A stretch of DNA of 34,031 nt, from the NCBI GenBank assembly GCA_021795215.1, contig JAJYPS010000020.1, positions 1-34,031 of the forward strand. Direction: 5' to 3'. The notes under the pieces are model-generated. The model had not been told where the DNA came from and did no database searches. It worked only from the letters and a program-made list of their open reading frames with translations. A program made the position numbers and the translations under genes. Shown one piece after another: positions 8,121-27,813 of this stretch. The DNA is from Actinomycetes bacterium. Its GTDB lineage: Bacteria; Actinomycetota; Acidimicrobiia; Acidimicrobiales; JAKAOS01. Position 1 is the stretch's first letter, and every line of letters starts with the position of its first letter.

Positions 8121-8126
8121 AGCGAG

Positions 8127-9394: not shown

Positions 9395-9405
9395 ACGGAA
9401 GCAGT

Positions 9406-9443: not shown

Positions 9444-9492
9444 CAGTCGGCACAAGAGGCTCTAACGAGCCGGGGGAACCAAGGGGGGATGG

Positions 9493-9729: not shown

Positions 9730-9819
9730 TCCCTTCGGCCAATCCGGCTTCAGCCGTACCCGGCGCATTCGGACACGGCTTACGTTCCGCTCAGACTCCC
9801 TGACTTAAGCGAGGCACAA

Positions 9820-10209
9820 TTGTCAATGTGGACAGGCGAAGGTGACGCCAAGATCCTCTACGTTCAGACCCACGGTGTGAACGACCCGGGCCGTTCGGCC
9901 ACGCCCTTCTTCCTGGCGGCCTCGGCCGCTGCGATGGACGTCGAAGTCGGCATCTACTTCACGATGTACGGACCTCAGCTGCTCCAGCGGGACGTCGTGG
10001 ACAAGATCGGCCCGAAGGGCGATCGTGGCCAGCGTTTGTCCTACTTCATCCGCCAGGCGACCGACCTCGGCGTGCATCTCTGGGTCTGTCAGCCCTCTCT
10101 GGACCTGAACGACCTAACCCAGGAGGAGCTTGTGGAGGGCGTCGGGATGATCGGCGGCGCCGCCTTCAACGACCTGGCCATAGAAGCCGACGCAGTCGTC
10201 TCCTTCTGA
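9820..10209 (+). CDS. DsrE-family sulfurtransferase
   Basis: A 129-residue DsrE/DsrF-like protein: KILYVQTHGVNDPGRSATPF at the N-terminus, then EVGIYFTMYGPQLLQ, and the conserved Cys90 in HLWVCQPSLDLNDL, followed by GAAFNDLAIEADAVVSF. The TTG at 9820 has AGCGAGG five bases upstream; the ATG at 9826 is the alternative. DsrE-type proteins bind persulfide sulfur on the conserved Cys and exchange it with TusA. It sits between tusA and sHdrC1. Assignment to the DsrE3 group is likely but not proven. Confidence 0.85.
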   Translation: MSMWTGEGDAKILYVQTHGVNDPGRSATPFFLAASAAAMDVEVGIYFTMYGPQLLQRDVVDKIGPKGDRGQRLSYFIRQATDLGVHLWVCQPSLDLNDLTQEELVEGVGMIGGAAFNDLAIEADAVVSF

Positions 10210-12138: not shown

Positions 12139-12246
12139 CCAGTACCGGGGCGGGCCGGATCGGTATCGCCCGTCCGGGTCGAACACGAAGTAGGTCGGCT
12201 GCTAGTCAGGCGGCGTATCTGTGGTGACGTGCATGAGGCAGACAGA

Positions 12247-12292
12247 ACGGGCGCGCCCGTGAAACGGGGAGAGCCGGTGACGATTCACCGGC
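12247..12292. promoter_or_regulatory. Two hairpin-forming elements in the sHdrB1-sHdrA spacer
   Basis: A perfect 14-bp palindrome ACGGGCGCGCCCGT (12247-12260) is followed by a perfect hairpin GCCGGTGA-CGAT-TCACCGGC (12273-12292). The second ends nine bases before the AAGGAGA ribosome site of sHdrA. This 173-base spacer is the largest gap within the core sHdr genes and may hold an mRNA processing or attenuation element. Confidence 0.5.
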
Positions 12293-12311
12293 GGAGTACA
12301 TAAGGAGAGCA

Positions 12312-13373
12312 ATGTCCAACCAGAGCGTGGTGGTCATAGGAGGCGGCCCGGCAGGACTCAGGGAAGCCACCACCGTGGCGGAGCTCGGCCAGCAGGTGAC
12401 GTTGATAGAGAAGAGGTCCTACCTCGGTGGGATGCCTATCGCCGAGAACTACTCGAACCTCACCCCGTACTTCATGCAGGCGGACGAGGCGATGGGGGCG
12501 ATCATCTCTCATCTGCAGTCGCTCGACGGCGTCACGATCATGACCGACACCACGGTCACCGCCTGTACGGGCGAGGCGGGAAACTTCTCCCTGGCAGTGC
12601 AGGGCAAGGACGGTCCCGCCTCGGTGGAAGCGGGCGCAATTGTGCTCGCCACCGGCTTCCAGCACTTCGACCCGGGCCGCGAGACGCAGCTCTACGGCTA
12701 CTACGAGTTCCCCGACGTGATCGCCCTGCAGGACCTCGAGGCGATGATGAAGGAGGGCAACATCGTCCGTCCTTCCAACGGCGAGCCTCCCAAGCGTGTC
12801 TGCTTCGTTCAGTGCGTCGGCAGTCGTGACCGCCAGATCGGTAACGAGTACTGCTCCAAGGTGTGCTGCGGTATCGCTTCCAAGGAGGCGATAGAGATCC
12901 GAGAGGCGCTGCCGGACACCGAGGTGTTCATCTTCTACATCGACATGCGTATGTACGGCTACTGGGAGAGCCAGATCTACTGGCCGGCGCAGGAGAAGCA
13001 CCACGTCCAGTACGTCAAGGGCATCATCACCGAGGTCCTTCCCAAGAACGGCCAGCTGTTGGTGCGGGGAGAGGACACGACGATGGGCCGCCCGATGGAG
13101 GTCATGATGGACATGGTCGTGCTCTCCGTCGGGATGGAGCCGTCGGTCGGCACCCGCGAGATGTCGGCCCTGCTGGGGGTGAAGCAGAACAAGTACGGCT
13201 TCGTCGAGGCCGTCAACGCCCCGCTGGACACGGTGACCACCAGCCAGGCCGGGATCTTTGCCGCAGGTGCCGCCCTGGGGCCGGCCGACTTGGAGGACTG
13301 CACCTCGAGCGGCGGCTTGGCGGCAGCAAAAGCCATCGGGACGATCAGACGATCGATGGCCGTCGCGGGCTGA
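12312..13373 (+). CDS. shdrA: sHdrA, flavin and Fe-S subunit of the sHdr complex
   Basis: A 353-residue HdrA-type flavoprotein. VVVIGGGPAGL (7-16) begins the FAD-binding fold, ATGFQHFDP is the second dinucleotide-fold element, and C164, C168, C181 and C185/C186 (CFVQCVGSRDR, then YCSKVCCG) form the HdrA-characteristic cluster site. The C-terminal GIFAAGAALGPADLEDC closes the FAD domain. It is shorter than methanogen HdrA, as in other sHdr systems. AAGGAGA precedes the ATG. It would collect electrons from sHdrB/C and pass them on, here plausibly to EtfAB. Confidence 0.92.
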   Translation: MSNQSVVVIGGGPAGLREATTVAELGQQVTLIEKRSYLGGMPIAENYSNLTPYFMQADEAMGAIISHLQSLDGVTIMTDTTVTACTGEAGNFSLAVQGKDGPASVEAGAIVLATGFQHFDPGRETQLYGYYEFPDVIALQDLEAMMKEGNIVRPSNGEPPKRVCFVQCVGSRDRQIGNEYCSKVCCGIASKEAIEIREALPDTEVFIFYIDMRMYGYWESQIYWPAQEKHHVQYVKGIITEVLPKNGQLLVRGEDTTMGRPMEVMMDMVVLSVGMEPSVGTREMSALLGVKQNKYGFVEAVNAPLDTVTTSQAGIFAAGAALGPADLEDCTSSGGLAAAKAIGTIRRSMAVAG

Positions 13374-13416
13374 AGTACCGCAGGAGGCTCGGTCACCGGC
13401 GCTGGAGGGGGGTGTG

Positions 13417-14157
13417 ATGGCAGGACAAATCGTAGATACGCCAGTTGCGCGGGACTTCGTCTCGGAGGTTCTGGCAAGAGTGGCTCCGGAGGAGTTGGCA
13501 TCCATAGCCGACTCCGCCCAAGCGAAGTCGGATGCCGTCCGCTCCCTCCTGACGGACGGAGCGGCGCGTCTTGGGCGTCCCGACCTCCGGCGCTTGTTGC
13601 GCAGCTCTTTCGTGACCCGCAGGCGTGCCGACGCCATCCTCGACTCGGTAGGCCACCAGGAGCTCGGCGCTGCCATCGACGCGCTGCTGCAGGGTTGGGG
13701 GGATCTGCACGAGAGGCTGTCACCGCTCACCGACATCCTTCACGCGTTCCCGGAGGCTGCCGCCGATCTCCCGTTCGAACTGCTCCGCTTCGGCGAGCCC
13801 GAGCGCTGGTGGCCGTGGACTCGTTGGATGTGGGATCCTCGCTCGGACACCGGCGCCTTACGGCTGCTGATCGTCGACGAAGTGGATCTGTTCGGCGCTA
13901 CCCGCGAGGACACGTACCACCGGGTGGGCGAGGCGATGGCTGTGGTCGAGGGCACTGCCCGCGCTGCCGGTCTGGGCGCCATCACCGGCGGCCAGTTCGG
14001 GGTAGACGTGTTCCTCGGCTGCGTCTACGGCGTCTACATGTACACGGTCCTGCGGCTTCGGATGAGTCAAGAGTTCAATCGCATAGTTCCCGAACTGCCG
14101 GAGTTGGTCCGGCGTCTTTTAGGGGTCCACAACCCGGAGGTTCGCTCATGCCAGTAG
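13417..14157 (+). CDS. Conserved sHdr-associated protein of unknown function
   Basis: A 246-residue protein placed exactly where sHdr loci carry a conserved hypothetical gene between sHdrA and the second HdrC/B genes. It has helical N- and middle parts, then a Trp-rich stretch (ERWWPWTRWMWDPRSDTGAL, residues 129-148) and a hydrophobic Gly/Tyr segment (ITGGQFGVDVFLGCVYGVYMYTVLRLR). No cofactor motif is visible. The ATG at 13417 has GGAGGGGGG upstream; GTG at 13414 is an alternative. Its end overlaps the next gene by 10 bases, implying coupling. Confidence 0.82.
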   Translation: MAGQIVDTPVARDFVSEVLARVAPEELASIADSAQAKSDAVRSLLTDGAARLGRPDLRRLLRSSFVTRRRADAILDSVGHQELGAAIDALLQGWGDLHERLSPLTDILHAFPEAAADLPFELLRFGEPERWWPWTRWMWDPRSDTGALRLLIVDEVDLFGATREDTYHRVGEAMAVVEGTARAAGLGAITGGQFGVDVFLGCVYGVYMYTVLRLRMSQEFNRIVPELPELVRRLLGVHNPEVRSCQ

Positions 14158-15488
14158 GAGGACGCAAACAAGAACCGGCTGCGTTCGAAAAAGAGGAGGC
14201 GGTCGTCCGCTCCACCATCTCCGGGCGGGAGTGGGAGCTACCCGGAATGTGGAACCGGATGTTCGAGCCGAGGGTGCTGAGTGGCTACACCTCCGGCGGG
14301 TTTGCCAAGATCTCGGCCCAGCCGGGCGGTGAGTCGCTCGAATGGTGTTACGGCTGCGGCAAGTGCGTCCCGGTTTGCCCGGTGGACATGGTGGGAGAGT
14401 ACGGCCCGCGAAAGATCCACCGGAAGGTGCAGACGGGAATGGATCTGTTCTCGTCGCCCGACCTGTGGCTGTGCACCACTTGCGCCAACTGCTTGCGGGT
14501 GTGCCCGAAGCAGGTGAACATGATCGACATCATGCCGGCGGCCCGAGAGGTGGCCGTTGCCGACGGCAACGTGCCGAACGAGCTGCAGGACGTGTTCGAG
14601 AAGAGCTTCCGGTACGGCAACGCCCTGGGCGAGAACGCCCGGCGCCGCCACGCGTGGGCCAAGGATGCCGGCGTGCCGGTGAGGGTGCTGGCCAACGATC
14701 CAGGCCCGGTCGACGTCCTCTTCTACGTGGAGGACTACTGGAGCTACCATCCCCGCGGCAAGCAGGCGGCGCAGGCGTTCGCGCGGGTGGCCACGGTGGC
14801 GGGTGTCGACTGGGCGATCCTCGGGCCGGAGGAGAAGACCCTCGGAGACTCCCAGCGGCTGGCAGGCGAGAAGGGTCTGTTCGAAGCCCTGATGGACGAC
14901 GTGACAGCGACGTTGGACCGCTACGAGTTCGCGAGGATCGTCACGCCCGACCCGCACGGCCTGAACGCGCTGCGCAAGGAGTACCCCAAGAGGGGCCACA
15001 CGTACGACGTGTCCCACTACACGCAGCTCCTGGCGCCTCTGGTGGACAGGCTTCCGCTGGTCAACCGGATCGAGAAGAAGGTCACCTTCCACGACCCCTG
15101 CTACTTGGGCCGTCACAACGGCGAGTACGAGGCGCCGAGGCGTCTGCTGGAAGCGATCCCCGGCTTGGAGCTCGTGGAGATGCTGCGCTGCAGGGAGAAC
15201 GGGTACTGCTGCGGAGGTGGAGGCGGCGGAATGTGGCTCGACGGTTTCACGGCCAACCACACCAGCGAGCGGCTGTCGGAGCGACGCGTCCGCGAGGCCG
15301 CCGAGACGGGGGCGGACATCCTTGCCGTCTGCTGTCCGTACGAGGTCTCCCGGTTCGAGGACGCGGCAAAGTCCACCGGAAACGAGCACTTGAAGGTGCT
15401 CGACATCATCGAGCTGCTGGACGAGGCGATGGGCGGCAAGGACGCCGTTGCATCCCTGGCCGCTTCGGGGGAACCGGTTGCCCGCTGA
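14148..15488 (+). CDS. shdrB3: Fused HdrC-HdrB (HdrD-type) protein, sHdrB3-like
   Basis: A 446-residue soluble fusion. The N-terminal ferredoxin part has C67/C70/C73/C77 (CYGCGKCVPVCP) and C109/C112/C115/C119 (CTTCANCLRVCP). The C-terminal HdrB part has HDPCYLGRHN, the CC pair in YCCGGGGGG and VCCPYEV. The start (14148, CCGGAGG upstream) overlaps the preceding gene. It replaces the separate sHdrC2 and sHdrB2 genes of type I sHdr clusters, which together with etfAB and the EMO-like gene points to a type II layout. It shares many motifs with the C-terminal half of the EMO-like protein downstream. Confidence 0.87.
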   Translation: MPVGGRKQEPAAFEKEEAVVRSTISGREWELPGMWNRMFEPRVLSGYTSGGFAKISAQPGGESLEWCYGCGKCVPVCPVDMVGEYGPRKIHRKVQTGMDLFSSPDLWLCTTCANCLRVCPKQVNMIDIMPAAREVAVADGNVPNELQDVFEKSFRYGNALGENARRRHAWAKDAGVPVRVLANDPGPVDVLFYVEDYWSYHPRGKQAAQAFARVATVAGVDWAILGPEEKTLGDSQRLAGEKGLFEALMDDVTATLDRYEFARIVTPDPHGLNALRKEYPKRGHTYDVSHYTQLLAPLVDRLPLVNRIEKKVTFHDPCYLGRHNGEYEAPRRLLEAIPGLELVEMLRCRENGYCCGGGGGGMWLDGFTANHTSERLSERRVREAAETGADILAVCCPYEVSRFEDAAKSTGNEHLKVLDIIELLDEAMGGKDAVASLAASGEPVAR

Positions 15489-16647
15489 GGAACGCCTACG
15501 GGTCATCGACTTCGGCTACGTCTCCCCGCTGCGATCACAGACCCTGTGGCACGCCGTCGCGATGGGCGTATCCGACGGCGCGGCACCTCCGACGCTGTCG
15601 TTCGCCCGTCCGACCGCGCCCTACGTCGGCATCGGCTATCACCGAAGCCTGCAGGAGGTCGACACCGATGTATGCGCTGCAAAGGGCCTGCCGGTCTATC
15701 GCCGGATGGTAGGTGGCGGCCCCGTCTACCTGGACCAGAACCAGCTGTTCTTCCAGATCACGATCCCTGCGCGCCAGGTGGTAGGCGTTCGCAGCGCTGC
15801 GCTGCGGAAGCTGCTCGGCCCTGCGGTCGCTGCCTTTCGCGCGGCAGGGATCGACGCCCAGTTGGACGCTGCCACCGAGATCGTGGTGGGAGAGCGCAAG
15901 GTCTGCGGCCACGGCGCAGGACAGATAGAGGAAGCGGTGACAGTCGTCGGCAACTGCATCGAGTCGTTCGACCATGAGGAAGCGGTATCGACCTTGCGAC
16001 TGCCCGACGACCGCATGCGGTCGGACGTGCTCGCCGCCATGCGGAGCTACGTGGGGCCCCCTGAGGGAACTCCGGCGATCGACTCGACGTCGTTCACCCA
16101 CGCAGCCGCGGGCGCGTACGAGAAGGCACTGGGTCTGACTGCGTCGCCGGGACAGCTGACCGATGCCGAGCTGGCTCACCTGGATCGGCTGGACGACATC
16201 TTCGTCAGCCCGCGTTGGATCTCGTCGGGCGACGCGGAGGCCGCCGACGAGCCGGCCGAGGTGGCGGCGCCGGACATCCGGCGCTACGAACCGGCACGGC
16301 GGGACGCCGTCGACGGCGGCTGCCGCCAAGTCAAGATAAGGGGCGGTGTCTACGTGTTCAGAGCTGCCACCGAGGCAGCGGTCGCCCGCGGGACCGTGGT
16401 GGGGGGCCGCATTCGCCACGCAAAGCTGCGGCTGCGAGGATCGAACGCCCTGCAACCGGATCTCGAGGAAGGCGAGCTGCAGAATCTCCTGGGGGTGTTG
16501 GAGGCGAAGCTGGAGGGGCTGGGGCTCGGTGAAGCCGCCGACGTCCTCCGGTCCGTCGGCGCCGGCGGTTCCGAGTGGCGAGTGGCGTCGACGTTGGCGG
16601 ACACACTGGATCTGGTGGATAGGACTGGCATGGAGGCTGGGCGATGA
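15478..16647 (+). CDS. Lipoate-protein ligase for sHdr lipoyl carriers (sLpl-like, copy 1)
   Basis: The start was taken as TTG 15478, overlapping the previous gene by 11 bases with GGGGGA upstream; this gives 389 residues. Ligase motifs are RRMVGGGPVYLDQNQLFF (75-92) and GERKVCGHGAGQ (138-149, with K141 in the substrate-activating position). A C-terminal accessory domain from about 265 (VKIRGGVYVFRAATEAAVARG) resembles the LplB domain, so A and B parts are fused as in sLpl(AB). It would attach lipoate or octanoate to the LbpA proteins of this locus. The stop overlaps the next ATG. Confidence 0.82.
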   Translation: MPAEERLRVIDFGYVSPLRSQTLWHAVAMGVSDGAAPPTLSFARPTAPYVGIGYHRSLQEVDTDVCAAKGLPVYRRMVGGGPVYLDQNQLFFQITIPARQVVGVRSAALRKLLGPAVAAFRAAGIDAQLDAATEIVVGERKVCGHGAGQIEEAVTVVGNCIESFDHEEAVSTLRLPDDRMRSDVLAAMRSYVGPPEGTPAIDSTSFTHAAAGAYEKALGLTASPGQLTDAELAHLDRLDDIFVSPRWISSGDAEAADEPAEVAAPDIRRYEPARRDAVDGGCRQVKIRGGVYVFRAATEAAVARGTVVGGRIRHAKLRLRGSNALQPDLEEGELQNLLGVLEAKLEGLGLGEAADVLRSVGAGGSEWRVASTLADTLDLVDRTGMEAGR

Positions 16648-17126
16648 CGCTTACCGAACGGGTGAAGGGCTACGAGCTCAGGCTGGATCTCAGCTACGAC
16701 CCGGCGAGCGACCTGTGGGTCGACACATCCGGCTGCACCGACGCGAGCGGATCGCCGGGCTCGGGCGTGGTGGTCATCGGCCTCGATCCTTTGGGGGCCG
16801 AGACGTCCGGCACGCTGGCTCAGCTGTCGTTGGCAGCTCCGGGAGCCGAGGTGAGGCGGGGAGGTCCGCTCGGGTCTCTCGAAGCCGAGAAGTTCGTCGG
16901 GCCCCTGCTCGCTCCGTTGTCGGGCACCTTGGTGGAGGTCAACTCCGAAGCGTTGGCGCAGCCAGCGAAGGTGCACCACGATCCATACGGCACGTGGCTG
17001 GTCAAGCTTCGGCCGTCGGACCTGGGCGCGGACCTCGACACGCTGGTGAGGGGCGAGGCGACGGTACGCGAGTGGTTCGAGTCCCGTGTGGACGACTACC
17101 GGCGTCAGGGAGTGCTGGCCGAATGA
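16644..17126 (+). CDS. lbpA: LbpA-like lipoyl carrier, divergent copy 1
   Basis: A 160-residue GcvH-fold protein. The lipoyl-lysine turn is SLEAEKFVGPLLAPLSGTLV with K83 as the predicted attachment site, followed by VNSEAL and HHDPYGTWLVKLR as in H-proteins. The N-terminal half is divergent and lacks the usual aromatic H-protein start. LbpA proteins carry sulfur bound to their lipoyl group into the sHdr complex; they do not serve glycine cleavage. ATGA overlaps tie it to the ligase upstream and the radical SAM gene downstream. Confidence 0.85.
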   Translation: MTLTERVKGYELRLDLSYDPASDLWVDTSGCTDASGSPGSGVVVIGLDPLGAETSGTLAQLSLAAPGAEVRRGGPLGSLEAEKFVGPLLAPLSGTLVEVNSEALAQPAKVHHDPYGTWLVKLRPSDLGADLDTLVRGEATVREWFESRVDDYRRQGVLAE

Positions 17127-18106
17127 CGGTCACGTCCTCCCCCACGTTCGACTCGCGTCGGGAGCACTTCGGCAACGCGATGGAGTTCTACGCTCCCGGC
17201 CTGAAACGCTGGCAGACCGACGAGTGGACTCCCACGAACTCGCGGCGGTTCCTCCCCGTGTCCGTCACCGGTTCGGCGTGCGCCCTTCAGTGCGACCACT
17301 GCCAGACGAAGGTGCTGGACGGCATGATCTCGGTGCGTGCCGGAGGGAACCTGTTCGACCTGGCGAAGAGCCTCAGAGAAGGCGGCAGCGAAGGGATCCT
17401 CGTGTCGGGGGGCTCGACCAGGAGCGGCGGAGTGCCTTTGGAGAAGCACCTGGTGCACGTTCCCCGGATCAAGGACGAGCTGGGGATGCGGGTGATCGCC
17501 CATTCGGGCGTGGTCTCCCCCGCCCTGGCCGAGTCACTTGCCGACGCCGGTGTGGACGGCGTCATGCTGGACATCATCGGCGCGGACGACACGATCCACG
17601 ACGTGTACCACCTTCCCCTCACCACGGCGGACTTCGAGACGTCGCTGTCTCTGTTGTCCGAGCGGGGTCTCCGCATCATCCCCCACATCGTGCTCGGGCT
17701 CCACTACGGCAAGTTCCTCGGCGAGCACAACGCTTTGGACATGATCGCCCGCTACCCGGTGTCCACTCTGATCCTGGTGGTGCTCACGCCTCTGGTCAGC
17801 ACACCGATGGAACATCTTCCACCACCGCCTCTCGACGACGTGACGAGCTTCTTCGCAACGGCGAGAGAAGCGATGCCCACCACCAAGGTCAATCTCGGCT
17901 GTGCCAGACCGATGGGCCCCATGAAGAGGCATCTGGACGAAGCTGCGGTGGACATCGGGCTGAACGGCATCGCCTATCCGGCCGAGGGGATCATCGCCTA
18001 TGCAGCAGCAAAGGGCCTGGAGCCGCGCTGCTACGAGTGGTGCTGCTCGCTGACCTGGACCGGCGAAGAGGGCGACAAGTGGAGCGAAGTGAGCCTCAGC
18101 GCATGA
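17123..18106 (+). CDS. lipS1: Radical SAM lipoyl synthase component (LipS1-like)
   Basis: A 327-residue radical SAM protein with C53/C57/C60 in CALQCDHC (CxxxCxxC) binding the SAM cluster, then GILVSGGSTRSGG and VMLDIIGADDTIH typical of the biotin-synthase-like barrel, and further Cys near the C-terminus (CYEWCCSLTW) that could bind an auxiliary cluster. LipS1 and LipS2 together insert the two sulfur atoms into protein-bound octanoate, replacing LipA. Which radical SAM gene here is LipS1 and which is LipS2 was judged by order and general look, so the numbering could be swapped. Overlaps both neighbours by four bases. Confidence 0.78.
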   Translation: MTVTSSPTFDSRREHFGNAMEFYAPGLKRWQTDEWTPTNSRRFLPVSVTGSACALQCDHCQTKVLDGMISVRAGGNLFDLAKSLREGGSEGILVSGGSTRSGGVPLEKHLVHVPRIKDELGMRVIAHSGVVSPALAESLADAGVDGVMLDIIGADDTIHDVYHLPLTTADFETSLSLLSERGLRIIPHIVLGLHYGKFLGEHNALDMIARYPVSTLILVVLTPLVSTPMEHLPPPPLDDVTSFFATAREAMPTTKVNLGCARPMGPMKRHLDEAAVDIGLNGIAYPAEGIIAYAAAKGLEPRCYEWCCSLTWTGEEGDKWSEVSLSA

Positions 18107-19377
18107 GCGCCGGCGCTACCACCCTCACCGGGCCCGAGTTGCACGCCCCTGCTCCGGAGAGCTTCCAGCCCATCGGGGCGGGTGCCGCCGAGCCGCCGAC
18201 TTCTTCGCAGAGGATCGTCCGGCTGCTGACAGACGACGGTGTGTCCGCCAAGGACGGCCTGGCGCTGGACGAAGCGCTGATGCGATCCCACGGGTCGCCC
18301 TCAGTCCTCCCCGGGTTGCGTGGCGCCGCCACGTCGCCCGGTCGCCCGGATGACGGATGCCCTCCGCCGACGGTACGCCTTTACACGTACGCCGACCACT
18401 GCGCTCTCGTGGGCCGCTACCAGAACGTGGACGCCGAAGTGGACATGCAGGCCGCTGCCGATCGTGGGCTGACCGTCGCCCGGCGACCCACGGGCGGCGG
18501 CGCGATACTCATGGGCGCGCAGCAGCTCGGTGTGGCCGTGGTGAGCCGGGCCAACGCATCCGAACGGCCTCGGACGGTCCTGGCCCGGATGGCTCAGGGC
18601 GTCGTCAAGGGCCTGGCTCTGGCCGGCGTGGAGGCGACGTTCAAGGGCAAGAACGACCTCGAGGTGGACGGCCGGAAGATCGCCGGGCTCGGGCTGTACT
18701 CCGACGGGAAGGGCGCCCTGCTGTTCCACGCCAGCGTGCTGGCCGGTCTGGACATCGAGTTGATGCTGTCGGTGCTCCGGATCCCGGCATCGAAGCTGGG
18801 GCGCAAAGGCGTGGCAACGGTCGCCGACAGGGTCACGACTCTGTCGGACCTCACCGGAGAGCCGTGGGACGGCGCCCGGCTCCGGCCACTGGTGGCGGCA
18901 GGGTTCGAGGACCTGCTCGGGTCGCCACTCGAGCCGTCGAGGCCGAGCGACGTCGAGCTGTCGCTCGCCTCCGACCTGGCCGAGAGCAAGTACGGCAGCG
19001 ACGCATGGACCCGTGAACGCCACGCGTCACGTGACGCTGTCGGCACTTCGACAGCTGCTACGGCGGTCGGCACGGTCTCGTGTCAGCTCGCACTGCAAGG
19101 CGACGTGATAAAGAGCGCCCTGCTGGGCGGTGACTTCAACGTGATGCCGTCGGAGCTGATGGCCGCGGAGAAGGCGCTCCGCTGGCAACGCGTCGACAGC
19201 CGTATCCTGCTGCCTCGCCTGGAGAAGGCGCTGGAGGGCTCCTCCGTCGTCGCGCCCGCTTCCCTCTTGGACGCTGTCCTGGCCGCAGCCGCCGACGCGA
19301 GCCAGGTGCAGACCGCGGTCGAGAGCGCGGCACCCCGTCGCACCGGTTCCTGCTACTTCCCGGAGGTTTCCAGATGA
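18103..19377 (+). CDS. Lipoate-protein ligase, second copy
   Basis: A 424-residue LplA-type ligase: RRPTGGGAILMGAQQLG from residue 127, GKNDLEVDGRKIAGLG (182-197, K192 as activating lysine), LFHASVLAGLDI and KLGRKGVATVADRV. A C-terminal accessory domain runs to the end (LALQGDVIKSALLGGDFN). Its first 85 residues are a Pro/Ala-rich, poorly conserved extension. It is more like canonical LplA than copy 1 and sits between the two radical SAM genes. Having two ligases may reflect octanoate versus lipoate transfer, or different carrier targets. Four-base overlaps on both sides. Confidence 0.82.
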   Translation: MSAGATTLTGPELHAPAPESFQPIGAGAAEPPTSSQRIVRLLTDDGVSAKDGLALDEALMRSHGSPSVLPGLRGAATSPGRPDDGCPPPTVRLYTYADHCALVGRYQNVDAEVDMQAAADRGLTVARRPTGGGAILMGAQQLGVAVVSRANASERPRTVLARMAQGVVKGLALAGVEATFKGKNDLEVDGRKIAGLGLYSDGKGALLFHASVLAGLDIELMLSVLRIPASKLGRKGVATVADRVTTLSDLTGEPWDGARLRPLVAAGFEDLLGSPLEPSRPSDVELSLASDLAESKYGSDAWTRERHASRDAVGTSTAATAVGTVSCQLALQGDVIKSALLGGDFNVMPSELMAAEKALRWQRVDSRILLPRLEKALEGSSVVAPASLLDAVLAAAADASQVQTAVESAAPRRTGSCYFPEVSR

Positions 19378-20465
19378 CCACCATCCCGCTGCCCGTCGTC
19401 AAGACGGATGCCCAGATCAGCCCCGACTGGGTGCGTATCTCGGGAGCGAGCGCCATTGCTCTCCGGTTCCAGTCCGGACGATTCTCACGGGATTTCGACT
19501 TCGGCGGCATCAACCTCCTCCTCAACTACGACGACGGCTGCAAGTCGGACTGCTCCTACTGCGGCTTGGCTCGCACGCGGCCGGGCACCTACGAGGACAA
19601 GTCGTTCATCCGTGTCGACTGGCCGCTGGTTCGCACCGACGACCTCGTCGACCGTATGGCGAAGCAAGCGGACCGGCTGACCCGGCTCTGCATATCGATG
19701 GTGACCAATCCATTCGCCTACAGAGACACCTGCGAGATAACCGAGCGGATACGCGCCAAGGTGAAGACGCCCCTGTCCATCCTGGTGGCTCCCCCGACAC
19801 TGAACAGGCGGAAGCTGGAGCATTTCGCCGAGATCGGGGTGGACATGATCGGCATCGGCCTGGACGCTGTCACGGAGGAGCTGTTCCGGACCCACAGGAC
19901 CGACGTACCGGCCGGTGGTGCCGGCCTCAGCTGGGAGAAGTACTGGTCGATCGTCTACGACGCCCGTGACATCTTCGGTCCGTGGAAGGTCAACTGCCAC
20001 ACTCTGGTCGGTCTGGGAGAGTCCGACAGGGACATGGTCGACACGTTCCTCCGTCTCCGGGACAGGCAGATCTTCTCCTACCTGTTCTGCTTCAACCCGG
20101 AGCCGGACAGCCGTCTGGGATCGTACCCGAAGTCCCCGATCACCCGGTGGCGACGGATTCAGCTTGCCAAGCATCTCGTCGAGACCGAGGGGTTCGGCTC
20201 CGAGCAGTTCGGGTTCGACGACGAAGGGGCTCTCGTACGCGTGTCGGGTCCTGCGTCGATCGTGCAGCAGGCCGTGGAGAGCGGGGTGCCGTTCATGACC
20301 GACGGCTGCCCCGGAGAGGAAGGGGAACCGGGCTGCACGCGTCCGTACGGTTCCTACCGCCCGAGTGAGTCGTACCGAGACTTCCCGTTCCGGCCGACGC
20401 CGGACGACACACAACAGATCCGGGCCGAGATGGCTCTGGACGACGTCTTCGAACCAGTGGGGTGA
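19374..20465 (+). CDS. lipS2: Radical SAM lipoyl synthase component (LipS2-like)
   Basis: A 363-residue radical SAM protein with C56/C60/C63 (CKSDCSYCG). The biotin-synthase-like core includes LCISMVTNPFAYRD, DMIGIGLDAVTEELF, VNCHTLVGLGESDRDMVDTF and FSYLFCFNPEPDSR. The C-terminal part has TDGCPGEEGEPGC with two Cys that may hold the auxiliary sulfur-donor cluster. It partners with the other radical SAM gene of the operon in making the lipoyl group on LbpA. Start ATG overlaps the ligase stop. Confidence 0.8.
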   Translation: MTTIPLPVVKTDAQISPDWVRISGASAIALRFQSGRFSRDFDFGGINLLLNYDDGCKSDCSYCGLARTRPGTYEDKSFIRVDWPLVRTDDLVDRMAKQADRLTRLCISMVTNPFAYRDTCEITERIRAKVKTPLSILVAPPTLNRRKLEHFAEIGVDMIGIGLDAVTEELFRTHRTDVPAGGAGLSWEKYWSIVYDARDIFGPWKVNCHTLVGLGESDRDMVDTFLRLRDRQIFSYLFCFNPEPDSRLGSYPKSPITRWRRIQLAKHLVETEGFGSEQFGFDDEGALVRVSGPASIVQQAVESGVPFMTDGCPGEEGEPGCTRPYGSYRPSESYRDFPFRPTPDDTQQIRAEMALDDVFEPVG

Positions 20466-20470
20466 ATCAG

Positions 20471-21250
20471 ATGCGGATCGTGGTAGCCATGCGCCAACTA
20501 GCGGACCTAGTTGAAGAGTTGGAGGTGGACGACAGCGGCACGGACATCGATCGGGAGTTCGTCAAGTTCGTGGCGAACGAGTTCGACGAGTCGGCTCTGG
20601 AAGAGGCTCTGCTCATCAAGGAAGGTGTCGGAGCGGACCAAGTGGAAGTGGTAGCCGTCGCCCTGGACGAGCCGGACGTGGACCAGACGCTCTACACGGC
20701 ACTCGCGAAGGGTGCAGACAAGGCGGTCAAGTTGGCCGGCGTACCGGAAGGCTGGGTGTCGTCCCATACCAGGGCCTCGGCGATCGCCAAGTGGCTGGAG
20801 AGCCAGCAGTGGGACCTGGTCATCACCGGCGTGCAGGCTGCCGACGACCTGGACGGGCAGGTGGCGGGACTTCTCGGACGGATGCTCGGCGTTCCCCACG
20901 TGGCTGTGGTCGTCAGCGCGGTCCCCGAGGGCAACGTGGTGAAGGTCTCCCAGGAGCTGGGCGGCGGCACGGTGGCGGAGGAGGAAGTCGCCATGCCTGC
21001 CGTTCTCGGTGTCCAGGCAGCGCGGCAATCGCCTCGCTACGCACCCATCACCCGCATCAGGCAGGCGATGCAGGCCGGCGGACTGAGCGAGGAGACCGTC
21101 GAGGTGTCCGGAGACGGGGGAAGGCCTACGGTGCGGAGGCTCTACGCCCCGGAGAAGAGCGGCCAGGCGGAGATGTTGACCGGGAGCGCCGCCGACGTGG
21201 CAGACAAGATCATCGAGCTGATCCGGGCCAAGGGCCTGGTCAAGTCCTGA
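20471..21250 (+). CDS. etfB: Electron transfer flavoprotein beta subunit (EtfB-like)
   Basis: A 259-residue EtfB with VVAMRQLAD, NEFDESALEEALLIKE, TALAKGADKAVKL, GVQAADDLDGQVAGLLGRMLG and a C-terminal ADVADKIIELIRAKGLV that contacts EtfA. The ATG at 20471 is preferred over GTG 20462. It follows lipS2 by five bases and precedes etfA by 13. In type II sHdr loci EtfAB is proposed to accept electrons from the sHdr complex and pass them to EMO. Confidence 0.9.
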   Translation: MRIVVAMRQLADLVEELEVDDSGTDIDREFVKFVANEFDESALEEALLIKEGVGADQVEVVAVALDEPDVDQTLYTALAKGADKAVKLAGVPEGWVSSHTRASAIAKWLESQQWDLVITGVQAADDLDGQVAGLLGRMLGVPHVAVVVSAVPEGNVVKVSQELGGGTVAEEEVAMPAVLGVQAARQSPRYAPITRIRQAMQAGGLSEETVEVSGDGGRPTVRRLYAPEKSGQAEMLTGSAADVADKIIELIRAKGLVKS

Positions 21251-21263
21251 GGGGGCCGAACTG

Positions 21264-22226
21264 ATGGCGAACGACGTGCTGGTGGTGGCTGAGCGCTCCG
21301 GCGGCCAGCTGACCGACATTACATACGAACTGCTGGGCAAGGCCAAGGAGCTGGCCGGTGCTGCCGGCGGCCGCGCAGCCGTGGCTCTGATCGCCGACAG
21401 CTCCGGAGTGGACTCCCTGGGTGCTGCGGATGTGGTGTACACCGTGGAGGGACCCGGCCTGGAGGGCTACTCGCCCGAGGCGTTCGAGAAGGCGCTGGGG
21501 GCGGTCGTCGACGCCGCCGACCCTCGCCTGGTGCTCATGGGAACCTCCACACTGGGCCTGGACCTGGGGGGCTCCCTGTCGGTCTCGTGGGGTGCTCCGC
21601 TGGCGTCCTACGTGATCGGCCTCGACACGGAGGGCAGCGACATCGTCGCCACTTCCCAGCTCTACGGCGGCAAGCTGCTGGCAGAGGCGGTGATCGACGG
21701 CCCCAAGGCCGTGTGCACCGTGATCGGCGGGTCGTTCCCCGCCGATGCCGGCCGAGCGGGCGGCTCCCCCGAGGTGGTCCAAGTCGACGCCCCTGCGGGT
21801 CTGTCCGAGCTGAAGGCGCGCTTCAGCGCCCTGCGTGAGCCGGACCGCTCCGGAGTGGACATCACGACCGCCGACCTACTGGTGTCGGTCGGACGCGGCA
21901 TCGGCAGCCAGGACAATCTGGAGCTGGTGGAGGAGCTCGCCGGAGCACTCAACGCTCCCCTGTCCGCCTCGCGGCCGATCATCGACCAGGGATGGCTGCC
22001 CAAGCCGCACCAGGTCGGCAAGTCGGGCCAGAAGGTGAAGCCGAAGGTGTACCTGTGCTTCGGCATATCCGGTGCGCCGGAGCACCTCGAGGGAATGCGC
22101 AACGCAGACACGATCATCGCCTGCAACACCGACGAGAACGCGCCGATCTTCGACGTGGCGCACTACGGCACCACCACGGACCTGTTCGATCTGGTGCCCG
22201 AGCTGGTGGAGCGCCTGGGATCATGA
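21264..22226 (+). CDS. etfA: Electron transfer flavoprotein alpha subunit (EtfA-like)
   Basis: A 320-residue EtfA. The C-terminal FAD domain is clear: LLVSVGRGIGSQDNLELVEE, ASRPIIDQGWLP, HQVGKSGQKVKPKVYLCFGI, SGAPEHLEGMRNADTIIACN and DENAPIFDVAHYG. It forms the heterodimer with EtfB; FAD is bound by this subunit. The stop overlaps the start of the EMO-like membrane oxidoreductase, an adjacency that supports direct electron transfer between them. Confidence 0.92.
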   Translation: MANDVLVVAERSGGQLTDITYELLGKAKELAGAAGGRAAVALIADSSGVDSLGAADVVYTVEGPGLEGYSPEAFEKALGAVVDAADPRLVLMGTSTLGLDLGGSLSVSWGAPLASYVIGLDTEGSDIVATSQLYGGKLLAEAVIDGPKAVCTVIGGSFPADAGRAGGSPEVVQVDAPAGLSELKARFSALREPDRSGVDITTADLLVSVGRGIGSQDNLELVEELAGALNAPLSASRPIIDQGWLPKPHQVGKSGQKVKPKVYLCFGISGAPEHLEGMRNADTIIACNTDENAPIFDVAHYGTTTDLFDLVPELVERLGS

Positions 22227-24439
22227 CGTTGGACCCGACGCTCGCCCTGGTGGAGACCAGAAAGGTCTTCGCAGGAGAGGGCACCGTCGCCCAGGCGGTG
22301 TTCTACGGCCTGTCCGTGCTCACCATCGCGACGTTCTTCACCGGCATCGTGCTGAGGGTCCGCAAGTACGGTCGTGGCCGCCCGGCCCGGGAGGGGCGGT
22401 GGATGCGTCCCTCCCACCGGGAGGACGTGCCGGAGGTGACCACCAAGCCGAGCTTCGCAAAGGGCTTCTGGACAGTCGCCACCAACCGCACCATCAGCCG
22501 CGACCAGCCGAGCGTCGGTATGGCCCACCTCCTCGTCTTCTGGGGGTTCCTGGGCCTCTTCGCCGCCACCACGATCCTCAGCCTCGACTACGACATCCTG
22601 GGCAACGTCAGCCCGCTGCTGGTGGGCCACACGGTCAGCTTCTTCCACGGCCCCTTCTACCTGGCCTACAACGCAGTGTTCAACCTGGCCGGAGTGATCG
22701 CAATCCTCGGCACGGCCCACCTGATGGGCCGGCGTGCGAGCCACAAGGAGCCACGCCTCGACTACACCAGGGCGTTCAAGCCGGAGGAGGGCTACTCCCG
22801 CAAGCGCTTCATGCAGGGCGACTGGCTTTTCCTGTGGCTCCTGATGGCCCTGTTCGTGACCGGCTTCCTCATACAGGGACTGCGCATCGACGAGGCTCAC
22901 TTCCCCGGCTTCGAGCGGTGGACCTGGATGGGCTACCTGACCGGCCTGGGCTGGAACGCAGTCGGCGTCGGGCCACACCTTGCGGCCCACGTCCACCCTT
23001 GGTTGTGGTGGTTCCACATCCTGATGGCGCTGGCATTCGTCGCCTACGTGCCGTTCTCCAAGGCCAACCACATGATCGCCTCCCCGGCCAACCTGGTGGT
23101 GAACGATCCGGCCAACACGCGTCGCCTTCCGTCACCTCCCAGCGGTCACCCGGGGTACACCTCGCTGGCCGACTTCACCCCGAAGGAGCTTCTAGGCCTG
23201 GACGCATGCACCAAGTGCGGACGGTGCCACTACGTCTGCCCTGCCCGGACCGCGGGAGCGCCCCTGTCTCCCAGGGACCTGATCCTCGACCTGCGCCAGT
23301 GGGTCAATCGTCAGGAGCACATACCCGTGGTGCTCGACCAGGAGGAGCGCCCGGCTGCTACCGGCCCTCTGGCTGCCAACGGCTCCACTGCCGTCGCCGG
23401 CGACGTCATCGCACCGCTGACGCTGTGGTCCTGCACCACCTGCATGGCCTGCGTGGAGGTGTGCCCGGTCGGGATCGAGCACGTGCCCAGCATCATCCAG
23501 ATGCGACGCAAGCTCGTCGATGAGGGCACGATGGACGCGACGCTGCAGTCGGCCCTCCAGAACATTGCCCAACAGGGGAACTCGATGGGCAAGTCGGCGA
23601 GGATGCGCGCCAGGTGGACCAAGGGCCTCGACTTCACGATCCCGGATGCGCGCAAGGAGCCGGTCGAGTACCTGTGGTTCGTCGGCGACTTCGCGTCCTT
23701 CGACGACCGGCTGCAGGGGCTTTCGCGCACACTGGCCGGCATCCTGCACCACGCGGGGATCAGCTTCGGCCTCCTCTACGAGGACGAGCGCAACTCCGGC
23801 AACGACGTGCGCCGGGTGGGCGAAGAGGGGCTGTTCGAGATGCTGGTCGAGCACAACCTGGCAGCACTGGCCAAAGCCGACTTCCAGACGATCATCACCA
23901 CGGACCCCCACACCTACAACACACTGCGCAACGAGTACCCGTCCTACGGGCTCGACAAGCCGGTGCGCCACTACAGCGAGGTGCTGACGGACCTGGTTCT
24001 TTCCGGCAGGCTGCCGATCAAGCCGCTCGGCGGCCACGTCACATACCACGACCCTTGCTACCTGGGCCGATACAACCGGGTGCTCGATGCGCCACGCGCG
24101 CTCATCGAAGGGTTGGGCTGCGAGCTGGTCGAGATGCCCCGAAACCGTACCGGGTCGTTCTGCTGCGGTGCGGGCGGGGGACGGATCTGGATGGACGATT
24201 CCTTCCTGGAGGAGCGGCCCAGCGAGAACCGCATGAAAGAAGCGGTCGCTCTCGGAGTGGACACCTTCGTCGTCGCCTGCCCGAAGGACTTCGCCATGTT
24301 CTCCGACGCCGTCAAGACGACTGGCAACGAAGGCAAGATGACCGTGGTCGACATCGTCCAACTGGTGGACCGAGCGCTCGACCGGGATCGACTGCCCAGT
24401 CTGCAGGCAGCCCAGGCAGCACCCGAGCCGACGGCATGA
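22223..24439 (+). CDS. emo: Membrane HdrE/HdrD-type ETF:menaquinone oxidoreductase (EMO-like)
   Basis: A 738-residue fusion. Residues 1-285 hold about five membrane helices (near 24-46, 100-122, 145-168, 200-222, 256-278) of the NarI/HdrE b-type heme domain, with His in the helices (for example H102, H136, H142, H256, H258, H265). Then come two [4Fe-4S] motifs, C329/C332/C335/C339 (CTKCGRCHYVCP) and C404/C407/C410/C414 (CTTCMACVEVCP). An HdrD-like CCG domain follows (HDPCYLGRYN, SFCCGAGGG, ACPKDF). This architecture matches EMO proteins that move electrons from EtfAB to menaquinone. Coupled by overlap to etfA and the zinc-finger gene. Confidence 0.88.
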   Translation: MTLDPTLALVETRKVFAGEGTVAQAVFYGLSVLTIATFFTGIVLRVRKYGRGRPAREGRWMRPSHREDVPEVTTKPSFAKGFWTVATNRTISRDQPSVGMAHLLVFWGFLGLFAATTILSLDYDILGNVSPLLVGHTVSFFHGPFYLAYNAVFNLAGVIAILGTAHLMGRRASHKEPRLDYTRAFKPEEGYSRKRFMQGDWLFLWLLMALFVTGFLIQGLRIDEAHFPGFERWTWMGYLTGLGWNAVGVGPHLAAHVHPWLWWFHILMALAFVAYVPFSKANHMIASPANLVVNDPANTRRLPSPPSGHPGYTSLADFTPKELLGLDACTKCGRCHYVCPARTAGAPLSPRDLILDLRQWVNRQEHIPVVLDQEERPAATGPLAANGSTAVAGDVIAPLTLWSCTTCMACVEVCPVGIEHVPSIIQMRRKLVDEGTMDATLQSALQNIAQQGNSMGKSARMRARWTKGLDFTIPDARKEPVEYLWFVGDFASFDDRLQGLSRTLAGILHHAGISFGLLYEDERNSGNDVRRVGEEGLFEMLVEHNLAALAKADFQTIITTDPHTYNTLRNEYPSYGLDKPVRHYSEVLTDLVLSGRLPIKPLGGHVTYHDPCYLGRYNRVLDAPRALIEGLGCELVEMPRNRTGSFCCGAGGGRIWMDDSFLEERPSENRMKEAVALGVDTFVVACPKDFAMFSDAVKTTGNEGKMTVVDIVQLVDRALDRDRLPSLQAAQAAPEPTA

Positions 24440-24756
24440 ACTGCCCTTGGTGCGCCTTCCAAGGCACGCCTCGGGGTCTCCATGCCCATCTCGCCGAAGC
24501 GCACCCCGAGGGGGTCCGCTTCGAGACACGTGGCAACCGTCGGGTGTATGTGGTGGAATGCCCTATATGCCATTCGGGCTACGACCAGGCGATCAAGCCC
24601 GGCCTGGACGATCCGGAGTTCCTGGTGGAGTTCGAACGGGAGATACGGCTGGTCGGCTTCGACATGATGGTGAACCATCTGCTCGGCGAGCACCCCGAAC
24701 AGCAGCAAGAGGCCGGTTCATCCGAACCGGCGGAAACTACGCAAACCAACGACTGA
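24436..24756 (+). CDS. Small protein with two C2H2-type zinc-finger-like motifs
   Basis: A 106-residue soluble product with an internal echo: CPWC (C3/C6) with HLAEAHPE (H18/H23), and CPIC (C42/C45) with HLLGEHPE (H81/H86). Each set reads C-x2-C ... H-x4-H; the second has a 35-residue loop between Cys and His. This predicts two zinc sites made by duplication. The acidic tail (QQQEAGSSEPAETTQTND) looks disordered. It overlaps the EMO-like gene by four bases and sits nine bases before lipoyl carrier 2. Role unknown; an assembly or regulatory factor for the locus is a guess. Confidence 0.75.
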   Translation: MNCPWCAFQGTPRGLHAHLAEAHPEGVRFETRGNRRVYVVECPICHSGYDQAIKPGLDDPEFLVEFEREIRLVGFDMMVNHLLGEHPEQQQEAGSSEPAETTQTND

Positions 24757-24765: not shown

Positions 24766-25206
24766 GTGGCCACCGTCAACAACTGCAACATTCCCGACGA
24801 GCTGTACTACGTCGTCGAAAAGCACGTCTGGGCCCGCCCGGAGGGTGACCTGGTGGTTGTCGGACTGAGCGACGTCGCTCAGAACATGGCGAAGACCATC
24901 ATCTCCGTGTCGGTGAAGGCGGCCGGCAAGCCGGTCAAGAAGGCGCGCAGCATCGCTACCGTGGAGAGTGGGAAGTGGGTGGGCCCCGTGCCGAGTCCCG
25001 TCGCGGGTGAGGTGGTGGAAGTCAACGAGTCACTTTCGAGCCGTCCTGCGACCATCAACGAAGACCCCTACGGCGCCGGATGGATCGCGAAGATCCGAGC
25101 GTCCGACTGGGCCGCCGACTCTGCCGACCTGGCGACCGGCCCGGATGGCATCGAGCGGTACCGCCAGTTCCTCGACTCCGAAGGCATCTCCTGCACCACG
25201 GAGTAG
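24766..25206 (+). CDS. lbpA: LbpA lipoyl carrier, copy 2
   Basis: A 146-residue H-protein-like carrier, the most canonical of the three. It has LYYVVEKHVWARPEGDLVVV, GLSDVAQNMAKTIISVSV, and the lipoyl turn ATVESGKWVGPVPSPVAGEV with K70 as attachment site, followed by NEDPYGAGWIAKIR. A Cys four residues from the end (GISCTTE, C143) lies where carrier 3 has a CxxC. GTG start with GAGGAGG upstream. No gcvT or gcvP is nearby, which supports a sulfur role over glycine cleavage. Confidence 0.9.
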   Translation: MATVNNCNIPDELYYVVEKHVWARPEGDLVVVGLSDVAQNMAKTIISVSVKAAGKPVKKARSIATVESGKWVGPVPSPVAGEVVEVNESLSSRPATINEDPYGAGWIAKIRASDWAADSADLATGPDGIERYRQFLDSEGISCTTE

Positions 25207-25297: not shown

Positions 25298-25819
25298 TTG
25301 AACGATCCATCCCGCAGCGTCGCTTCCGGCAAGGGGATGCAACCCGTCACCGGAGGTCTCGACGCGGGCGCACCCAACTGGGCCGGATGTGCCGTACCGG
25401 ACTCGCTGCTCTACGACCTGGTGCACGACGTGTGGGTCTCCCTCGACGACGACGTGGCCACCATTGGCATGACGGACGTGGCCCAGACCAGGTGTGGCCG
25501 GTTGGTCCAGCTGTCCTGGAAACGTCCCGGATCGCCTATAAAGCGGGGGCGGCCACTGACCGCCATCGAGAGCGCCAAGTGGGTGGGACCGTTCGTCAGT
25601 CCCTTGTCCGGCGAAGTGATCGCGAACAACCAAAGCGCTTTCGCGGAGGACGTGGCGGTGGCGAACCGGGATCCTTACGGACGCGGGTGGCTCTACCGCA
25701 TCCGGGCGGACTTCCTTGCGGAGGAACGGCAGGCACTGAGCGACGGAGCCGCCGCCTTCGAGCACTATCGGGCCGTCATCGACCAGAACGACATCCGCTG
25801 CTTCCGATGCGCAGAATAG
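25298..25819 (+). CDS. lbpA: LbpA-like lipoyl carrier, copy 3, with C-terminal CxxC
   Basis: TTG start with GGAGGTGG upstream gives 173 residues. After a 30-residue polar extension comes the H-protein fold (LLYDLVHDVWVSLDDDVATI, GMTDVAQTRCGRLVQLSW). The lipoyl turn is AIESAKWVGPFVSPLSGEV with K94, followed by NRDPYGRGWLYRIR. Unlike the other carriers it has Cys at 31, 66, 168 and 171, the last two as RCFRCAE at the C-terminus. Gap of 91 bases after carrier 2. The CxxC could interact with the lipoyl dithiol or with a partner protein. Confidence 0.85.
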   Translation: MNDPSRSVASGKGMQPVTGGLDAGAPNWAGCAVPDSLLYDLVHDVWVSLDDDVATIGMTDVAQTRCGRLVQLSWKRPGSPIKRGRPLTAIESAKWVGPFVSPLSGEVIANNQSAFAEDVAVANRDPYGRGWLYRIRADFLAEERQALSDGAAAFEHYRAVIDQNDIRCFRCAE

Positions 25820-26104: not shown

Positions 26105-26611
26105 GTGTCCGAGTCGACACTGGACCAGACATCAGCGCAGAAGCGCATGGCACTCATTTGTTGGAGCTCCGATCTGGATCGGGTGTGGCCTACCCTCATC
26201 CTGTCGACGACGGCAGCAGCGTCAGGTCTCGAAGTGGACGTGTTCTTCACCTTTTGGGGACTGCGGGTGCTCCAGCGCAACGACAAGCGAGTCACGGGTA
26301 CCAATTGGATGCAGAAGATGGAGTCCATGGTGGACCGAGGCGGCACAGACCACCTGAAGTTGGGCAAGATCCATATGGGTGGGATGGGAACGACGATGAT
26401 CAAGAAGCTCGCCGACCAGTACAACGTGGCGTCGACAACAGAGCTTCTCGAAATGGCCAAGGATCTGGGCGTGAGGATGACTCCATGCCAGATGACGATG
26501 GACCTGTACGGACTGAGCAAGGACGACCTTATCGAAGGCATCGAGCCCCCGGCCGGCGCCACCAGCTACATCGACATGGCGGCCAACGCCGACATCAGCT
26601 TCCTGATCTGA
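26105..26611 (+). CDS. DsrE/F-like sulfurtransferase, second copy (DsrE3A-like)
   Basis: GTG start after GGAGGGGGAGAC; 168 residues. It has the DrsE_2-type layout: MALICWSSDLDRVWPTLILS (C19), GLEVDVFFTFWGLRVLQRND, MGGMGTTMIKK, and C128 in VRMTPCQMTMDLYGLSKDDL, ending ANADISFLI. Family members bind persulfide on the conserved Cys of the TPCQM-type motif and trade sulfur with TusA. It shares only general fold with the first DsrE-like protein, so the two are not recent duplicates. Confidence 0.85.
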   Translation: MSESTLDQTSAQKRMALICWSSDLDRVWPTLILSTTAAASGLEVDVFFTFWGLRVLQRNDKRVTGTNWMQKMESMVDRGGTDHLKLGKIHMGGMGTTMIKKLADQYNVASTTELLEMAKDLGVRMTPCQMTMDLYGLSKDDLIEGIEPPAGATSYIDMAANADISFLI

Positions 26612-26714: not shown

Positions 26715-27413
26715 TTGACGTCAGGCACTGCCGAAGCGACCACCGGTGCGGCTCCCGTCGAGCCGGTGGTCGCCTTCTGGTCGGACGACTTGGTGTTGCA
26801 GCGCAACGTGAAGCGAGCAGTTGCCGACCTGGGCATGGAGGTCCGGCCGTGGGAGGCTGCACGGGAGATCCGGCCATTGGTGCTGGTCGTGGACCTCGAT
26901 CGGGAAGGTGCCTTGGATACGGTCGCCCGGCAGCGGGCTGCGCTCCCCCAGTCGATCATCGGTGGACACCTGGCACAACCGGACCGTTCGCTGTGGGAAG
27001 CGGGCGAGAGGGCGGGCTGCGACTTCGTGTCCAACCGGGGCGCCTTTGCGCGACAGCTTCGCCAGCGGTTGGACCAGCCGGGCGCCCTGAGCGGACGGCA
27101 CCGACTTGCCCTGTGCGATGCGTCGGATGTCGCCGGACGGCTGGGGCTGGTAAAGCGCATACCGGAGAGCCCGCTCGGTCCGGTTGCCCTGTGGAACAGC
27201 GGCGGGATGCTGTCCTGTAGCGGAGACCGCTGCCCCCATGCAGGGGCCACCCTCTCCGAAGGAGAGATGGCGGACGGAGTGGTGACCTGTCCTCGCCACG
27301 GCAGCCAGTTCGACGTTTCGACCGGCGAACGGCTCAGAGGGCCGGCCGACGTCGGGATCGAGGTCTACGACGTCATCGAGGACAGCGGCCGGATATGGGC
27401 CGTCTGGTCCTGA
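26715..27413 (+). CDS. Receiver-like domain fused to a Rieske [2Fe-2S] domain
   Basis: TTG start, 232 residues. Residues about 17-120 look like a degenerate receiver-type alpha/beta domain (PVVAFWSDDLVLQRNVKRAV, LVLVVDLDREG, QSIIGGHLAQPDRSL, GCDFVSNRGAFARQL). Residues about 128-232 form a Rieske ferredoxin domain with complete ligands C173/H175 (RCPHAGATL) and C192/H195 (CPRHGSQFD). No signal peptide or membrane helix, so it is cytoplasmic. It is the last gene of the sHdr strand. Possible roles are electron carrier or redox-sensing adaptor; the N-terminal domain family is uncertain. Confidence 0.75.
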   Translation: MTSGTAEATTGAAPVEPVVAFWSDDLVLQRNVKRAVADLGMEVRPWEAAREIRPLVLVVDLDREGALDTVARQRAALPQSIIGGHLAQPDRSLWEAGERAGCDFVSNRGAFARQLRQRLDQPGALSGRHRLALCDASDVAGRLGLVKRIPESPLGPVALWNSGGMLSCSGDRCPHAGATLSEGEMADGVVTCPRHGSQFDVSTGERLRGPADVGIEVYDVIEDSGRIWAVWS

Positions 27414-27453: not shown

Positions 27454-27813
27454 CTACTCGTAGCGAGAGCGGAGCGCCTGCCGGCGGGTCAGCTCGTCGG
27501 CCATCACTTCCCTGAGCGTATCCACCGCTTCGAGCACCTTCGGATGCCGCAAAGAGTAGATGACGGTGTTGCCGTTCCGCTCCGCCTCGACCAGGCCCCG
27601 GTCCCGGAGCACCGCCAGGTGTTGAGAGGTGTTGGACTGCGGCGCACCGAGCAGACGAGAAAGCTCCCCCACGGTGCATCCCCGGTTCCGGAGCGTGTAG
27701 AGGACCATCAGCCGCTTCGGGTCGTTCAGGGCTTTGCACATGGAGGCCGAGAGCTCGTCCAATTCCTGGCGCAGCTGCGGACCCAAGATGTCGACCGCGC
27801 TCAAGGGAGTCAT
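27454..27813 (-). CDS. ArsR-family winged-helix regulator
   Basis: A 119-residue protein (start ATG 27813) with a standard ArsR fold: MCKALNDPKRLMVLYTLRNR, GCTVGELSRLLGAPQSNTSQ, HLAVLRDRGLVEAERNGNTVIYSL. It has two Cys, C26 and C46, both near the first helices; the C-terminal second Cys typical of persulfide sensors of the SqrR/BigR type is missing. ArsR-type repressors control many sHdr and sulfur oxidation loci, and this one lies directly after the locus in the opposite direction with an inverted repeat upstream. A sulfur-responsive role is therefore plausible but the sensing chemistry is open. Confidence 0.85.
   Translation of the reverse strand: MTPLSAVDILGPQLRQELDELSASMCKALNDPKRLMVLYTLRNRGCTVGELSRLLGAPQSNTSQHLAVLRDRGLVEAERNGNTVIYSLRHPKVLEAVDTLREVMADELTRRQALRSRYE

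Follow-up and report, generated by a model that had tools for sequence, protein, structure and literature searches.

Gene content of the cluster in the window

The window, i.e., the whole 34,031-nucleotide stretch of DNA analysed, comes from a genome of 2.6 Mb in 152 contigs and carries a full gene cluster comprising TusA, DsrE-type, shdrC1, B1, A, H, fused B3, LplA-like, lbpA1, lipS1, sLpl and lipS2, continuing with etfB, etfA, EMO, a zinc-finger gene, lbpA2, lbpA3, DsrE3 and a Rieske-domain gene (Table 1). By the definition in PMC11582611, a type II sHdr system has shdrC1B1AHB3 together with etfAB in a single syntenic cluster, and the interval 10232-22226 contains each of these elements (HdrC, HdrB, HdrA, H, the fused C2B2 protein (B3), EtfB and EtfA). 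The EMO-like protein matched PDB 9ojn ('Iron-sulfur-binding reductase', an EtfD/EMO-type Etf:menaquinone oxidoreductase) with a phmmer value of 1.7e-73. The gene beside DsrE3 (26715-27413) encodes a protein that ends in a Rieske domain and has no Pfam match in its N-terminal part, and was kept in most of the sHdr loci examined. Two more GcvH-family proteins are encoded outside the cluster (G000:C116:7118-7474 and 34012-34332), giving five in the genome.

Table 1. Features of the sHdr cluster in the window, and of the additional open reading frame found in five related loci.
Feature	Coordinates	Strand	Basis or remark
shdrC1	10232-10951	+	Pfam, NCBIfam
shdrB1	10969-12138	+	Pfam, NCBIfam
shdrA	12312-13373	+	Pfam, NCBIfam
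shdrH/hyp	13612-14157	+	No Pfam match; named by position and homology among loci
shdrB3, fused C2B2	14247-15488	+	Pfam, NCBIfam
lbpA1 and lipoate assembly genes lipS1, sLpl, lipS2	16644-20465	+	Pfam, NCBIfam
etfB	20462-21250	+	Pfam ETF
etfA	21264-22226	+	Pfam ETF_alpha and ETF
EMO-like membrane Fe-S quinone reductase (EtfD-like)	22223-24439	+	phmmer, Pfam; stop overlaps zinc-finger start
zf-Di19-like double C2H2 zinc-finger protein, 106 aa	24436-24756	+	Translation, homologues, alignment, Pfam zf-Di19
Predicted zinc site 1: C3, C6, H18, H23 (C-x2-C-x11-H-x4-H)	24442-24504	+	Invariant in 16/16, except C6 (15/16)
Predicted zinc site 2: C42, C45, H81, H86 (C-x2-C-x35-H-x4-H)	24559-24693	+	Invariant in 16/16
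Insertion in finger 2, about residues 50-73, lengthening the helix	24583-24654	+	zf-Di19 score without insertion; low-confidence models
lbpA2, GcvH-like lipoate-binding protein	24766-25206	+	Pfam GCV_H; always next gene downstream of the zinc-finger gene
lbpA3, second GcvH-like protein	25361-25819	+	Pfam
DsrE3-like sulfurtransferase	26105-26611	+	Pfam DrsE_2; kept in synteny block
ArsR-type gene	27454-27813		Window
~140-aa ORF	L002:9573-10004	+	Weak HTH_20/MarR_2 matches
~140-aa ORF	L003 ~9585-10004	+	Weak HTH_20/MarR_2 matches
~140-aa ORF	L010 ~9565-10003	+	Judged by size, place and reading by eye
~140-aa ORF	L012 ~9010-9534	-	Judged by size, place and reading by eye
~140-aa ORF	L046:3734-4099	-	33% related to the L002 ORF

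The zinc-finger gene and its predicted ligands

The 106-aa translation of the zinc-finger gene reads MNCPWCAFQGTPRGLHAHLAEAHPEG...ECPICHSGY...DMMVNHLLGEHPE... A preliminary description had placed a gene of this length here, overlapping the EMO-like gene, and the gene proved to be real: its ATG start and the TGA stop of the EMO-like gene (24439) share the bases ATGA, and lbpA2 begins 9 bases past its stop. Sequence and profile scans found homologues in two Amycolatopsis genomes and in other genomes of the phylum. Purifying selection acts on the gene, with a dN/dS of ~0.22 between the two Amycolatopsis copies and of ~0.12 between the window and G396, the latter at a dS near saturation. None of 200,000 shuffled versions of the protein, and no other among the 199 ORFs of the window, had the double C-x2-C...H-x(3-5)-H pattern.

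Alignment of 16 homologues revealed that C3, H18, H23, Y38, C42, C45, V73, H81 and H86 were invariant, while C6 was kept in 15 and replaced by D in L053, where site 1 is broken. The eight proposed ligands were eight among the ten most conserved columns. H16 varied, with Q and I at this position in homologues, making it an unlikely zinc ligand and leaving C3/C6/H18/H23 and C42/C45/H81/H86 as the ligand sets. The protein was earlier predicted to hold two zinc sites, a prediction to be given up if the Cys/His ligands were not conserved; conservation of all eight in 15-16 of the 16 homologues supports two predicted sites, arranged as the two CPxC...H-x4-H units of zf-Di19. Further conserved positions in the insertion and helix of the second finger (K/R54, F62, E65, I70, V73, D76 and position 78) suggest a binding surface. 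All 16 homologues are acidic (pI 4.6-6.4).

Relationship to the zf-Di19 family

The family zf-Di19 (PF05605) was the top Pfam match for 13 of the 16 members (E < 0.01). The intact window protein scored 21.6 bits, below the curated cut-off of 27.5, so that the whole protein falls outside the family as curated. When the residues separating CPxC from the final helix were deleted from four members, the window protein rose to 31.0 bits and the three homologues to 40.3, 38.2 and 29.3, all above the cut-off, whereas a control deletion taking H81-x4-H86 from the window protein gave 24.4 bits, still below it. These scores are best matched by a protein with two C2H2 fingers of zf-Di19-like type, the second finger being enlarged by a predicted insertion of ~21 residues that hides the protein from Pfam.

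The internal duplication that had been proposed for the two fingers found partial support. The zf-Di19 profile matched two stretches in three of the four insertion-less members, and finger 2 without its insertion aligned to the first-finger part of the profile. Direct alignment of the halves was weak, as 43-74 of 2000 shuffles scored equally high, and lent no support to a recent internal duplication; the spacings of the two fingers also differ.

AlphaFold models were of low confidence (pLDDT 59.7 and 56.4) because only three sequences served as input. They have in common a helix at 12-22, strands at 27-32, 35-41 and 48-53, and a long C-terminal helix. Foldseek searches with the low-confidence model gave no match below E 0.17, a profile search of PDB sequences gave only marginal zinc-binding matches (KCMF1 among them), and NCBIfam and PHROGs searches gave nothing convincing.

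Conserved position between EMO and lbpA2

The order etfBA-EMO-zinc finger-lbpA2 was found in 17/17 zinc-finger loci from diverse actinobacteria, including G397, where a contig break splits the zinc-finger gene. Conversely, 17 of the 18 actinobacterial clusters examined (etfBA/EMO with sHdr or adjoining cluster genes) contained the gene, the exception being G450. The zinc-finger gene is therefore a regular member of the actinobacterial type II sHdr cluster, and its coupling to EMO and lbpA2, as first suggested from the window, holds throughout these loci. Its mid-operon place, with ATGA overlaps in several loci and a short gap to lbpA2, would suit coordinated synthesis with EMO and LbpA2. An overlap with the EMO reading frame, as seen in the window, is not general, since an ORF of ~140 aa intervenes in five loci.

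In those five sHdr loci (Table 1), the ~140-aa ORF that separates the zinc-finger gene from EMO is winged-helix-like; it is missing from the window and may be a second unrecorded component.

Co-occurrence with sHdr

Among 396 genomes across the phylum, the zinc-finger gene was present in exactly the four with sHdrB1 at ≥74% identity, the same four being returned by single-sequence and profile searches. Two more profile matches at E ~0.009 lay inside much longer open frames (664 and 780 residues), and a fifth genome, G005, had a 41% sHdrB1 relative without the zinc-finger gene. Among 248 genomes of the order, sHdrB1 was found in 14, of which 13 had the zinc-finger gene, compared to 0 of the 234 others. 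Homologues scattered mostly outside sHdr loci would have spoken against an sHdr link; across the phylum and the order they were instead confined to genomes with sHdr. The formal co-occurrence probabilities of 1e-9 (phylum set) and 9e-21 (order set) ignore shared ancestry and thus overstate independence.

The sHdr cluster was patchy within lineages: in the order of G001 a single genome out of 16 had it, and in the class of G025 a single one out of five. This distribution speaks for transfer of the cluster as one unit. The plasmids searched held no zinc-finger match, including three Acidithiobacillus plasmids with sHdrB1 homologues.

Which genes the zinc-finger gene follows

Several loci in which parts of the cluster are missing or replaced served as natural controls. 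Besides EtfBA, genome G073 encodes a same-family EMO (58.7% identity) but neither sHdr nor the zinc-finger gene, ruling out that the gene follows EMO alone. More broadly, EMO/EtfD family members, mostly 33-42% identical paralogues, occurred in 54 of 149 genomes, and the zinc-finger gene only in the sHdr-positive ones. L048 lacks lbpA3, and L011, L050 and L051 have clusters without lip genes; all four retain the zinc-finger gene. In G005 (L057), an sHdr-like and LbpA-like locus had no detected Etf/EMO and no zinc-finger gene. Together with the plasmids, these controls tie the gene to the complete type II sHdr-Etf-EMO-LbpA2 unit, and not to EMO or LbpA alone.

The cluster of G450 (L058; genome 85% complete) looks complete for sHdr, EMO and LbpA2, with ~100 bases between EMO and lbpA2 and no zinc-finger gene, indicating that the gene is not strictly required. 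Its EMO is of another subtype, closer to general EtfD paralogues. Such EMOs also occur in L047 and L049, where the zinc-finger gene was kept (two of the three loci with swapped subtype), so that the EMO subtype does not explain the loss.

Three further observations concern these loci. The presence of the other EMO subtype in L047, L049 and L058 suggests EMO displacement within the cluster. The G073 locus (L094, reverse complement 1195-8292) has trimethylamine-dehydrogenase-like and GcvT-like neighbours, named from sequence by eye, and apparently represents the same EMO/EtfBA electron branch serving methylamine oxidation. L057, from a 1.3 Mb genome, is a divergent locus with an HdrB of ~40% identity and LbpA-like, LipS1, LipS2 and ligase genes.

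Proposed role and alternative explanations

The zinc-finger protein is probably an overlooked accessory part of the actinobacterial sHdr/lipoate sulfur-oxidation machinery. Actinobacterial type II clusters nearly always contain the gene, and where it occurs it always lies at the emo-lbpA2 boundary, which points to the electron exit from the sHdr complex. Judging from sequence and gene context, there is about an even chance that it is a core accessory protein of type II sHdr, an acidic cytoplasmic protein-binding adaptor at the junction between LbpA2/sHdr and EtfBA-EMO. Two zinc ions, predicted from the ligands, would hold a zf-Di19-type C2H2 finger pair, whose second finger, enlarged by the conserved insertion and long helix, may offer a protein-binding surface. 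Such a small acidic protein would most likely bind other proteins in the cytoplasm. The putative site of action is where the sHdr complex and lipoylated LbpA2 would hand electrons to EtfBA and membrane-bound EMO, an interface that the protein might dock, stabilise or assemble. The Di19 domains of RNF114 and related ligases bind protein modifications and ADP-ribose (PMC12583694), and offer a precedent for a role other than DNA binding. By likeness to this ADP-ribose binding, a stronger version of the adaptor can be drawn, in which a bacterial zf-Di19-type protein would be an essential type II sHdr subunit and a specific bridge from LbpA2/sHdr to EtfBA-EMO, maybe reading a nucleotide or flavin group there; this version seems unlikely.

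The foremost rival, itself rather unlikely, is an assembly or insertion factor, i.e., a zinc-stabilised chaperone maturing EMO (Fe-S or heme) or the lipoylation of LbpA2 without being a subunit of the working complex. A gene lying exactly between emo and lbpA2 would suit it, as would the loss in one lineage (G450), expected of a helpful yet dispensable factor; the gene is however absent beside the close EMO relative of G073, whose cofactor needs are presumably the same, and is present whether or not the cluster has lip genes. A coexpressed, autoregulating protein that binds DNA to control the shdr operon, with its cysteines as sensors of sulfane sulfur or redox state, appears still less probable. 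In its favour, C2H2 and plant Di19 proteins frequently act as transcription factors, five loci have a winged-helix-like ORF next to the gene, and sulfane-sulfur repressors are already known to control sHdr operons (PMC12423496). Nevertheless, the acidity of all 16 members disfavours nucleic-acid binding, the gene is buried mid-operon in the emo-lbpA2 interval in all loci, the ligand patterns are those of C2H2 fingers with no added reactive cysteine pair, and the cluster has its own ArsR-type gene (Table 1), as ArsR-like genes also occur near several related loci.

Two other explanations are very improbable. Cys-rich fingers could relay metal or sulfane sulfur to LbpA2/DsrE3 instead of holding structural zinc, in keeping with the adjoining sulfur carriers and transferases (TusA, DsrE-type), but all four conserved cysteines are C2H2 ligands and the alignment holds no free conserved cysteine. 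Least probable of all is a passenger gene riding a mobile sHdr cassette with no role in sulfur oxidation: the patchiness of the cluster noted above would allow it, and it is opposed by the fixed position, purifying selection, ligands kept over deep divergence and retention of the gene through EMO swaps.

Comparison with known systems

Type II clusters differ from type I in the presence of etfAB. The window cluster corresponds to Group III of Cao et al. (2018), which was described from Actinobacteria and Firmicutes (PMC6067878). As far as the excerpts of PMC11582611 and PMC6067878 go, type II/Group III clusters resemble the window in having shdrC1B1AHB3, etfAB and several lbpA genes together; the Group III figure legend of PMC6067878 names 'Hyp' and Etf only and no zinc-finger component, whereas the window cluster has one. 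The open-licence full-text literature on sHdr, LbpA, Etf, EMO and Acidimicrobium likewise yielded no description of a zinc-finger component of sHdr, an unlisted mention being possible, and 'zinc finger' was absent from the sHdr papers found, in agreement with the preliminary description, which knew of no sHdr function for the protein. Within the scope of these tests, what is new is the pairing of an already known finger type with an already known pathway, together with the insertion and the fixed association. The searches covered EMO-only and type I settings and did not find the gene there, and it provides a single-gene marker for type II sHdr in actinobacteria.

A works-like comparison is offered by Methanosarcina mazei MtrR (PMC13370731), which is small, has no transmembrane segments, and docks on a membrane energy complex to tune it; at 49 aa against the 106 aa of the window protein, it is a parallel to the proposed mode of action and not zinc-finger kin by any claim made here. 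Kinship lies with zf-Di19 (plant Di19, RNF114/RNF166 and KCMF1-type E3 ligases), with which the window protein has the twice-repeated CPxC...H-x4-H in common. It differs from that family in ~21 extra residues in finger 2 and in being a stand-alone bacterial protein encoded in a sulfur-oxidation operon, and would be unusual as a Di19-like zinc finger within a bacterial redox operon.
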